Origin: Paratrimastix pyriformis
Taxonomy: Eukaryota; Preaxostyla; Paratrimastigidae
Length of the DNA stretch: 64,000 nucleotides
NCBI GenBank assembly: GCA_027972325.1
Contig: JAPMOS010000010.1
Span: forward strand, 434,001 to 498,000
Direction: 5' to 3'
Every line of letters begins with the position of its first letter. The first letter of the stretch is position 1. Shown here piece by piece: positions 33,201 through 36,200 of the stretch. Under the pieces are notes generated by a model, which worked only from the letters and a program-made list of their open reading frames with translations, did no database searches and had not been told where the DNA came from. Position numbers and translations under genes: made by a program.

Positions 33201-36200
33201 GGGGATTATGGCGAATTGGCGATGATTTGAATCAGGTGATTATGGTGGTGATGGCGATGATGATGATGATGCTGGGGTGACGATGGAGTGCTGGTGGTGG
33301 TGATGGGATGGTGGACACGGACGGTCAGGACGGCCTGCAGGCGCGCCTCCACCAGGCCGCCGAGCTCCCGGTAGCGTTCCTTCTGCAATGCGGCGAGGCG
33401 GTGAGTGGGTGGTGGCGAGAGGGTGTGCGTGCCGCATGCTGGTGAGCACCCAGGAGGACGGGCAAAAGGGGCAGGGGCAGAACGTGGCGAGGTGTCTCAT
33501 CCCATCCGGTGGGCGGCCATGGCGGGGAGGCGGGACCAGCGCAGCGACGGACCCGGATCAGCCTGAGCTGCTGGGCCTGGGCGGTGCGCTGCTGGACCTG
33601 CTCCTGCAGCCAGTGGATCCGCCCCACCCGGGCGGCCACCTCGGGGTCCTCCTCCGCCGCCCCGCCAGCCCCCGCCTCCTCCGGCTGGGGCTGCTGCTGC
33701 TGCAGGGCCGCCTCGCCCTGGGCCACGGCAGCCTCGGCGGCGCTGAGCAGGGCGCCCAGGGGCCCCCCAATGGCGGCCGCGGCCGCGGCAGTGTCGGGCA
33801 CGGGGCCGGGCAGGGCCGTGTCTGCCAGGGCCAGGGCCAGGGCCGGGCGGGCCGGGGCGGACGGGCCGAGGTCGGGCCGGGCGGGGCTGGCGCCCTCGGG
33901 TGCGATGGCGCTCGTGTCGAGGAGGGCCAGGGAGGCCCCTTCCCCGGGGGCCCCTTGGGCGGCCGGCCCCATGCCCGAGGTGTCTAGAACGTCGACCGAG
34001 GCCTCCAAGATGCCGAGGGGCCGCGGGGCCGCCTCGGCGGCCGAGTCGTCCAGCATCTGAAGCGACTCCGAGGTGGCCTTGGCGCCGGGGCGCTGCGGGC
34101 TGGCCAGACTCGAATCGAGCATTCCGGGCGCCTCGTGGGCGGCGGCCAGGCCGCTGTCGTCAAACATGGACAGGGCCTCCTCCTCCTCCCCAGCGGGGCC
34201 CTGGGGGCCGGCCGGCGGGGCCTCGGGGCCGCCCAGGTCCTGATCGACGGCCTCGAAGGCGTCCCTGTAGTAATCCTCGCCCTCCTCCCCTGCCTCCGCC
34301 TCTTCGGGGACCGGGCCGACCGAGGCGGAGGGGCGCACCGTGGCGGCCGGGAGCGGGGCGTGTGTGGGCTGGCCGGGGACCGGGAGGGCCAGCGCGTCCC
34401 GCAGAAGCCGCTCCACCTGGGTGGACATGACAGCACCCCACAGCCAAAGAAGATGATGATGATGATGATGATGATGATGACAAGTCAGGTGAGCTCGCTT
34501 CGTTACGCTTTCAATCGGGTGACTATCTCCCCGAGGAAGGGTTGACCTGGAGTCGACCGCGACCACCCTGCGGTGATATGGCAGGGTGGCCGGAACGACT
34601 GGTGAGGTCGCCGTCCTTCCCCGACCCATTTGAAATTTCGACCTTGGTGGCTATCCCCCCGGGGAAGGGCTGATCGGCGGCCGGTCCCGACCACGGTTCG
34701 CTGGATTTATGGGTCCCTCCAGCGAACAGTGAGGTCGCCGTGCTTCCCCGACCTGTTTGAAATTTTGACCTTGGTGGCTATCCCCCCGGGGAAGGGTTGA
34801 CCTGGGGGCCACGACCACGGTTCGCTGGATTTATGGGTCCCTCCAGCGAACGGTAAGGTCGCCATCCTTCCCCGACCCGTTTGAGCCTGTTTGAAATTTT
34901 GACCTTGGCGGCTATCCCCCCGGGGAAGGGTTGACCTGGAGTCGATCGCGACCACCCTGCGATGATAGGGCAAGGTGGTCCGAACGACTGGTGAGGTCGC
35001 CATCCTTCCCCGACCCGTTTGAGCCTGTTTGAATTTTCGACCTTGGTGGCTATCCCCGGGGAAGGGTTGCCCTGGGGGCCACCACGACCCCCGCTTCTAA
35101 ACATATGTTGGGGTCCCCGACCGACTGGTGAGGTCGCCATCCTTCTCCGACCATTTTGAAATTTGACATGATCCCATAATATTTTTTGGATCGTGTCCCA
35201 CAATTTTGGGAGTGCCTCCCAAGTAGGGTATATAAGGGCCACCCCCTTGGGGAGACTTGTGAAGATGGGGTCGGAGGGCCGAAGGGCCGAAAAGCCGAAA
35301 GGCCGCAAGACACAGTAGGCTTAGTAGACCTGGTAGGCTCTCATGCGCCTGTGGCGCCCAGGCTGCGTCCGGCCCCACCTTCAGGTGCGATCGTTGTCCG
35401 GACAACACTGTTGCGAAAATGTTGCGAAATCGTTGCGAAATCGGTGCGAAACATGGTAGCGCTCTCTGGCCTCTGCCCTTGATGCCAAGCCCGCAGCCGC
35501 CCGAACCCGCTTGGAGACCCGAAGCACAATGGCCCGCCCGGTCAAGGTTGGCGATCCCCCTGATGAATGCCCCTACCATCCCGGCCTTGCGACGGGTTCT
35601 CTCGGGTGCTGGTCCACGGTGACCTGGACCGCTCGGACAGCTGGCCGGACCCCACTCCAACAACACGGTGCGCTCTCCAGGATACCACTGTGGCCTGTGG
35701 ACGTCCCCGCAGTGCTGCAGTAAGCCGGTCCCGAACACATAGGGTGTGATGACGGCTGCACTCTCCCCCTGGCAAATGGCGTGTTGCCCCTAAGTTGGCA
35801 AAAGTCCGACGGCATGAGGACTAAAAATACCAACTGCCTTTGGGTCGGGTCGGTGCCGGGGGGAGAGCCCTGGGATTTTACAGATTTTTGGAAGGCCGCC
35901 CTCAGTTCCTTCCCCCGAAAAGTCGTCCCTGTTTTTCGGTATTTATATATGTAGAATGATGATGATGATGATGATGATGATGATGATGATGATGATGATG
36001 ATGGGACACGAGCGCGGTCGGTGGGTGGCGGAATGGAAGATCCACGCGTGATGGGAGTGCCCAACAGGATCCAAGATCGCCGCCAGTGGGTCCGAACAGG
36101 AAATCTGCATCGTCGTGTGTGGTGGAGATGCGCGCAACGGGGTGGGCATGTGCGGGCGTGTGCAGCCGACCTCTGCCTGCTCGCGGTCGAGCTCCTTCTG

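Follow-up and report, generated by a model that had tools for sequence, protein, structure and literature searches.

Helitrons show little choice of target beyond an A|T step. Going by the title of a report of 2010 by Coates et al., a Helitron-like superfamily of Lepidoptera is said to disrupt a (GAAA)n microsatellite and to leave many loci with the same flanks. Here we describe a comparable situation in Paratrimastix pyriformis, centred on an array of five hairpin-bearing units in a 64,000-nt stretch of contig JAPMOS010000010.1 (assembly GCA_027972325.1, positions 434,001 to 498,000; C2:434001-498000 of the genome searched, which comprises 56.06 Mb in 495 contigs; hereafter the window). The array probably lies inside a young, non-autonomous transposon of ~1.5 kb and Helitron (rolling-circle) type that resides in GAT microsatellites. 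A preliminary description of the window had recognised the array, which is real, but had missed the transposon that encloses it, from 34 nt before its left edge to ~800 nt past its right one. The likeness to the Lepidoptera elements, judged by title and not by sequence, lies in the disrupted microsatellite. The differences are the repeat, (GAT)n, the internal array of ~110-nt hairpin units and the presence in the genome of a Rep-bearing interval with the same ends.

Several other systems share part of this combination. In the sections cited, HINE and DINE-1 Helentrons are non-coding, lack a target duplication and carry variable central tandem repeats (PMC4067079, PMC7492417). The present family is likewise non-coding, with such repeats, an end hairpin and an association with microsatellites, and it shows no duplication above 5 bp in the three informative copies, but no subterminal inverted repeats were found, the insertion step is A|T and not TT, and the microsatellite is the target on both sides rather than a part of the element. 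Helitron1 and Helraiser, as portrayed in excerpts of PMC4778049, are similar in the HUH Rep (here, of a putative partner), in having neither terminal inverted repeats (TIRs) nor, as far as the informative copies show, a long target site duplication (TSD), in an A|T target, for which AC is one of the alternative steps seen with Helraiser, and in determinants confined to short terminal stretches; the present ends differ in having CTTG for CTRR and an extra T before TC, and no hairpin stands out at the distance from the 3' end where one would be expected. For Helitron2 of Chlamydomonas, the passages drawn on from PMC3627910 state that RepHel may point either way and that Helitron-1N1_CRe inserts sequence-specifically without a TSD. 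Non-autonomous copies there, as probably here, share ends with autonomous ones, whereas no asymmetric terminal inverted repeats were detected in our family. Finally, the MuTAnT elements of Medicago, which are Mutator-like and sit in (TA)n, offer a parallel, on the portions used of PMC4486113, in their near-exclusive use of one microsatellite type, their many non-autonomous copies and their coding relative; they differ in having long TIRs, a 9-nt TSD and a transposase of another class (mudrA).

Helitron-like elements in microsatellites, HINE tandem arrays and microsatellite targeting by other classes are thus precedented. Unusual here are a nearly absolute preference for one trinucleotide repeat in one phase, ends that depart from the canonical form and, next to one of these ends, hairpin units that are exchangeable. 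Full-text searches of the literature showed no (GAT)n-targeted Helitron among the matches listed, which is no proof of absence. With this family, the idea that a rolling-circle transposon targets microsatellites would become testable. More generally, a transposon can put the same sequence beside a microsatellite at many loci, and a tandem array inside it can pass for a regulatory cassette or an RNA gene.

The element, its copies and its age

The element occupies positions 34481-35956 of the window (~1475 bp), is non-coding, starts with CAAGTCAGGTGAGC, ends with GGTATTTATATATGTAGAA and has (GAT)n on each side. Its parts other than the array are as follows (TRF, Tandem Repeats Finder):

34452..34480, plus strand: left flank, a (GAT)n microsatellite and the insertion target (TRF; pure run of 29 nt)
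34481..34516, plus strand: left terminus, CAAGTCAGGTGAGCTCGC...CAATC; 32 of 35 nt common to the Rep-bearing interval on contig C74
35160..35875, plus strand: non-coding body of the element; the longest open stretch varies by copy
35410-35451, plus strand: 11-bp tandem repeat inside the body (TRF)
35876..35956, plus strand: right terminus, ...GGTATTTATATATGTAGAA; hairpin 35915-35921 / 35933-35939; 79 of 81 columns identical in C74
35956..36003, plus strand: right flank, an (ATG)n microsatellite (TRF) in the strand and phase of the left flank; the first A is perhaps the element's

Searching the whole genome with the array returned many further copies, so that the array is not confined to one locus. 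All 40 matches scored for its 643 nt (the best 40 of 170 candidates) covered it in full at 97-100% identity, and the 640 nt to its right are likewise dispersed, with full cover in 40 of 40 scored (the best 40 of 166 candidates). To the left of the GAT run the similarity stops: among the best 40 of 155 candidates, no scored match except the window's own passes it. Allowing at most three mismatches, the genome holds 161 left and 127 right ends, against none for a reversed-pattern control.

For comparison, 68 copies (L020-L087) were taken from the lists of best matches, and young copies and those with the unit order of the window (ABBAC, see below) are therefore over-represented; three of them (L057, L076, L087) run into N. 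Both ends could be placed in 67 copies, the window included, and 66 of these measure 1,090-1,618 bp. The remaining one, L079 (C3:104097-107197), is a 124-bp miniature consisting of only the left 41 nt and the right ~80 nt, approximately the same stretches that the C74 interval has in common with the element. No open reading frame is kept among the copies, the longest open stretch shifting in both length and place. Over the right 785 nt of 65 copies, the median pairwise divergence is 1.8% and the nearest-neighbour divergence 0.39%, with several identical pairs; the latter value indicates a young family and recent spread. A second subfamily, starting with AGGCGAGC, is up to ~15% different. Some copies are head-to-tail neighbours, as at L048 (C388:45300 and 46972), where the next copy follows after the GAT run; the spacing of C234:183983 and 185598 suggests the same arrangement.

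The GAT target

In 65 of the 66 copies with both junctions read (L057 is omitted for its N), a GAT run that ends in ..TGA adjoins the element on the left, and in 59 of them (A)ATG follows directly on the right. The seven of the 66 without (A)ATG at that place comprise one copy in (AAC)n (L021), four in GAT with a trimmed end (L029, L048, L053, L079), one with a changed end (L035) and one whose right end is displaced by inserted DNA (L084). The strand and phase of the microsatellite are fixed relative to the element. Pure repeat runs in the 67 copies have a median of 36 nt on the left and 40 nt on the right, the right value of L057 being an N run. Genome-wide, exact GAT junctions number 152 on the left (GATGATGATGACAAGTC) and 121 on the right (TATGTAGAATGATGATG). 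GAT arrays are also abundant outside the element, V(GAT)9 occurring at 7,415 places (reversed-pattern control, 0 and 1).

On inspection of the copies, excising CAAG...AGAA restores a perfect GAT repeat, or AAC in L021. The simplest insertion is therefore one into an A|T step, or A|C in L021, without duplication, the edges being those that leave the repeat unbroken. The longest possible flank duplication, whichever edge is assumed, is 5 bp in L024, 3 bp in L062 and 4 bp in L082, three copies that are informative in that their right flank departs from the repeat; a 3-bp duplication is indistinguishable from the repeat itself. No empty site was found among the flanks of the fetched copies, where alone it was looked for. 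Two pairs of copies, L027/L032 and L022/L081, share flanking repeats, but in L032 and L081 the shared sequence does not extend into the right flank. The microsatellites themselves are often broken by TGG (GATTGGATGATG), for example at L022, L027 and L090, and those of L090 seem intronic. Another repeat, starting with GTGTGAAGCAAAGGACTGATCAATCGGACA, adjoins the end of a GAT run in three places (left flanks of L032 and L081, right flank of L086) and may represent a second family that uses this target.

A Rep-bearing interval with the same ends

Matches to PF14214 (Helitron Rep; Helitron_like_N) were found in the genome at C74:48159-48583 on the minus strand and nowhere else (2 of 2 candidates), with E-values of 4.5e-17 and 1.3e-13 on translated pieces of C74. 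The same contig bears a left end of the element at 39429 and a right end at 52278, both on the plus strand and in GAT repeats, enclosing 12.85 kb. These ends turned up in junction searches run for another purpose, and the C74 sequence read comprises 46659-50083 together with 141 nt of the ends (60 + 81 nt). The left end is identical to the window at 32 of 35 positions and to copy L052 at 33 of 35, and the similarity breaks about where unit 1, and with it the array, would begin. The right end is identical in 79 of 81 columns and runs into GAT. By eye, CATGCTGTGTATTT, just inside the C74 left end (L100, C74:39441-39500), also occurs within the GAT array of L090.

For 78 of 95 listed left ends, a listed right end lies no more than 2.8 kb away, at a median distance of 1,480 bp (range 271-2,607). 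Among the other 17, 15 have no listed partner, the nearest partner of one is 172 kb away and that of C74 is at 12,849 bp, the only listed case with this spacing and a Rep gene between the ends.

Probable assignment to the Helitron superfamily

It is mainly because of the ends shared with the Rep-bearing interval on C74 that the family is filed under the Helitron superfamily, the subgroup being left open. In the Rep-coding orientation the element reads TTCTACATA ... CTGACTTG. Terminal inverted repeats do not rise above shuffles, the best inverted match of 6-7 nt being reached by 139-286 of 500 shuffles. Central tandem repeats, a trait of Helitron2 and of the Helentron-HINE group, are present as 2-6 units of ~110 nt. 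A 7-bp hairpin (CCGAAAA/TTTTCGG) stands ~16 nt from the end opposite the Rep-side 3' end.

A number of observations weigh against this assignment. The 3' end in the Rep-coding orientation is CTTG where canonical Helitron1 has CTRR, and an extra T precedes the TC with which a canonical Helitron1 5' end begins. The Rep-side 3' end forms only short stems (-2.8 to -7.4 kcal/mol with RNA parameters), while the last 70 nt at the end with the 7-bp hairpin fold like shuffles (z -1.2); with weak stems at one end and an unremarkable other end, the polarity is unsettled. Asymmetric or subterminal inverted repeats of the Helitron2/HINE type were sought as well, and none rose above shuffles. The Rep of C74 is split over two frames, with the HUH-type RGLPHCHLIL in one and the preceding part in the other, so that this copy may be broken or inactive. 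In the part of the C74 interval that was read, no helicase was found in any of the eight minus-strand frames of at least 110 amino acids (aa) of L089. Unpaired ends do occur, since 17 of the 95 left ends lack a partner at up to 2.8 kb among the ends listed. The genome has many reverse transcriptase (RT) loci, including frames that combine GIY-YIG and RT, which are a rival source of microsatellite targeting. Near-absolute microsatellite targeting is, moreover, unusual for Helitrons. An AT target preference is what is reported for them in the excerpts of PMC4778049.

The GIY-YIG frames give substance to one alternative, in which the family is a non-autonomous retroelement, Penelope-like or site-specific non-LTR (long terminal repeat), that targets microsatellites by target-primed reverse transcription. 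N-terminal GIY-YIG and RT domains with equal frame length in both lists occur at several loci, among them C484 (1744 aa), C1 (1278), C311 (820), C476 (983), C458 (1030) and C266 (829). These loci look like permuted Penelope-like elements, with an N-terminal endonuclease, and such elements favour microsatellites; the fixed strand and phase of the insertions would also fit a nicking endonuclease. By eye, however, no listed RT match (best 150 of 904 RT candidates) falls between listed element ends, in a comparison that used 100 of the 152 left and 100 of the 121 right junctions. Right ends (127) do not outnumber left ends (161), and 5' truncation is therefore not common. The shared ends, furthermore, point to the Rep-bearing interval on C74. 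As Penelope-like elements seem to be present in the genome, this explanation is retained at low odds, as an unlikely one. At C222 a further GIY-YIG lies upstream of an RT, apparently in one open frame.

The second alternative, which we consider no more probable than the first, takes C74 to be a composite, either a pair of 1.5-kb copies in decay or a single one interrupted by a Helitron nested in it, and has the family moved by another transposase. The 17 listed left ends unpaired within 2.8 kb are compatible with it, and the C74 ends are known from only 60 + 81 nt. Nevertheless, the left end on C74 does not run into unit 1 after 35 nt, unlike array-bearing copies, and the sole PF14214 matches of the genome stand between the two C74 ends, which are on one strand. 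Assignment to a Helitron-type element with C74 as its Rep-bearing relative is preferred.

The internal array

The preliminary description had reported five units with common flanks and three exchangeable central hairpins arranged as A, B, B, A, C, and all of this was found in place. The units measure ~110 nt, are spaced 124-138 nt apart and have flanks that are 70-93% alike (families D1 and D3):

34515..34634, plus strand: unit 1, hairpin type A, arms 34560-34571 / 34581-34592
34649..34761, plus strand: unit 2, hairpin type B, arms 34692-34705 / 34718-34731
34776..34888, plus strand: unit 3, hairpin type B, arms 34817-34829 / 34842-34854
34910..35022, plus strand: unit 4, hairpin type A with one mismatch, arms 34952-34960 / 34970-34978
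35046..35159, plus strand: unit 5, hairpin type C, arms 35086-35091 / 35110-35115

Arms of 9-10 bp had been described. This holds for type A, where unit 1 has 12-nt arms that are 92% matched and a perfect inner 9 bp, and for type B, with a perfect inner 10 bp in units 2 and 3, but not for the type C hairpin of unit 5, which has 6 bp only. The single C/A mismatch of the unit 4 hairpin on the plus strand is, as had been noticed, a G-U pair on the minus strand.

Layouts were lettered by motif matching in 76 array records, so that short deletion copies such as L086 are perhaps mistyped; L092-L099 are ~700-nt pieces that may lack their last units, the record of L090 runs on into the beginning of another copy, and L091 consists of two copies. 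The order ABBAC was found again in 45 of the 76 records, the window included, and the layout is therefore not a matter of chance. ABAC follows with 16, ABBAB with 3 and AC with 2, and ten other layouts occur once each, among them L091 as two ABBAC copies. Unit number ranges from 2 to 6 per copy. The early impression of a modular layout rather than a simple satellite is thus borne out, since both the number and the order of units differ among copies. On a tree of 65 copies with nine layout types, 14 changes are needed, compared with a mean of 22.1 and a minimum of 18 in 500 shuffles; layout only partly follows the tree, which argues that units were gained and lost repeatedly. L055 (C12) and L065 (C36) have right flanks 98% alike over 815 bp and contain five and six units, respectively. 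A unit change in place is therefore likely, the two copies being allelic or duplicated.

A likely history begins with a Rep/helicase of the C74 kind, which would recognise both ends (~35 nt on the left, ~80 nt on the right). Rolling-circle replication would copy the element, which would then be joined into the A|T (once A|C) step of a microsatellite. In the non-autonomous lineage, a short sequence may have been acquired just inside the left end; its tandem duplication, with exchange of central segments, would have given rise to the units, which unequal recombination would go on adding and removing. Because the array is absent inside the C74 left end, it would be dispensable for the mobility of the C74 element, if this moved as such.

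Is the array a set of sites ahead of a promoter?

One function put forward in the preliminary description was that of protein-binding sites ahead of a promoter. Within the element these would be enhancer sites of an LTR-like or promoter module. The box in question is:

35229-35237, plus strand: TATA-like box, TATATAAGG, intact in 13 of 67 copies

The array does lie ~70 nt upstream of this box. Among 39 copies of five-unit length, moreover, diversity is lower in the units (0.007-0.015) than in the spacer that follows the array (0.044) or at positions 35261-35500 (0.023). Against this, the box is seldom intact, of the 11 segments compared the one that contains it has the highest diversity, and no unit is as uniform as 35501-35750 (0.0045). 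No reading frame is conserved among the copies, and same-strand listed neighbours, by eye, show no constant LTR-like spacing. The proposal is weak and the explanation very improbable. An LTR proper, with the array followed by the TATA-like box, was dropped, as the box is rarely intact and the gaps between neighbours are irregular, for example ~1.1, 3.3 and 3.6 kb among the ends listed; the gap on C78 resembles host gene sequence by eye.

Folding and variation of the hairpin arms

The unit flanks GGGGAAGG and CCTTCCCC pair with each other beyond the central hairpin, and units 1 and 4 therefore each fold as one nested hairpin of ~90 nt. Judged against 300 dinucleotide-preserving shuffles, these two units reach z -3.6 to -4.8 on either strand, units 2 and 3 reach -1.2 to -1.7 and unit 5 reaches -0.9 on the plus and +0.6 on the minus strand. 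The whole array, against 60 shuffles, gives -5.0 (plus) and -4.2 (minus).

Arm variation was counted over distinct units (A, n = 65; B, n = 52; C, n = 42), with no neutral expectation computed. Distinct patterns that break a pair, keep it with a change on one side or change both sides number, respectively, 28/8/3 (plus) and 26/15/4 (minus) for type A, 31/11/0 and 26/12/2 for type B and 9/4/0 and 11/6/0 for type C, such that pair-breaking changes exceed pair-keeping ones in every type and on both strands. Counted by cells, type A on the minus strand has 119 kept (114 + 5) and 76 broken, an excess for which the C/T difference that separates unit 1 from unit 4 is held mostly responsible. Three or four neighbouring type A patterns with both sides changed are probably a misaligned deletion copy, such as L086, and the two in type B lie outside the central arms on the minus strand. 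In L049, L064 and L082, left-arm variants of type B break pairs while the right arm is unchanged.

Extra bases per site at paired and unpaired positions are 0.63 and 1.07 (plus) and 0.64 and 1.10 (minus) for type A, a contrast inflated by the ragged, unpaired unit ends of the alignment; 0.62 and 0.63 (plus) and 0.56 and 0.73 (minus) for type B; and 0.24 and 0.35 (plus) and 0.31 and 0.28 (minus) for type C. Rfam has no match in the window at the gathering score, and the eight matches at a relaxed E-value (0.11 to 4.1) are every one under that score. No transfer RNA (tRNA) was found by a tRNA scan, and no similarity to phage records was found.

These data bear on the other suggestion of the preliminary description, processed RNA stem-loops under selection for structure. 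The folding of units 1 and 4, the G-U pair on the minus strand of unit 4, the lower variation of paired sites in type A (less clearly in B on the minus and C on the plus strand) and the excess of kept cells in type A on the minus strand speak for it, but breaking patterns outnumber kept ones throughout with no credible compensatory change, paired and unpaired sites do not contrast in B on the plus or C on the minus strand, the type A contrast is inflated and Rfam is silent at the gathering score, leaving this the least probable of the explanations weighed. Selection for structure is not borne out. The outcome comes close to the independent variation of the arms that had been named as refuting it, although the test has limited power because the family is so young. 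As far as sequence comparison goes, arm variation lends no support to RNA structure and leaves room for DNA hairpins that may be used at low stringency.

Within a Helitron-type element, the array is thus best read as transposon cargo rather than as host regulatory or small-RNA sites. There is a slim chance that the units are working, exchangeable DNA hairpins read by the rolling-circle machinery as pausing, termination or Rep-loading sites. If so, hairpin-reading would let a non-autonomous element that carries several such units out-compete its Rep-bearing parent while renewing its units by swaps of the central hairpin.

Host context

The whole insertion may lie inside an intron of a host gene:

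34417..36170, minus strand: possible host-gene intron enclosing the whole insertion, proposed by eye

By eye, removal of 34417-36170 would bring ...REQAE and VERLLRDALAL... together in one frame, the donor being GTC and the acceptor CAG; a scripted intron search restricted to GTA and GTG donors returned no matching pair for this interval. An intron-generating element, with ends like CAG|GTGAGC and TAG, was considered and dropped, since the second subfamily starts with AGGCGAGC, an exon formed by the GAT flanks would not be sensible and the copy in the window would be antisense in the possible host intron. Gene content and frames broken by introns give the window a eukaryotic character. Elsewhere in it, pieces of host genes were noticed at 23987-24802, 2084-3160 and 7650-8657, and the host proteins include a C54 peptidase (ATG4-like), for which a search for protein homologues returned none, an F-box-like protein and a protein with two distant RCC1-type homologues.

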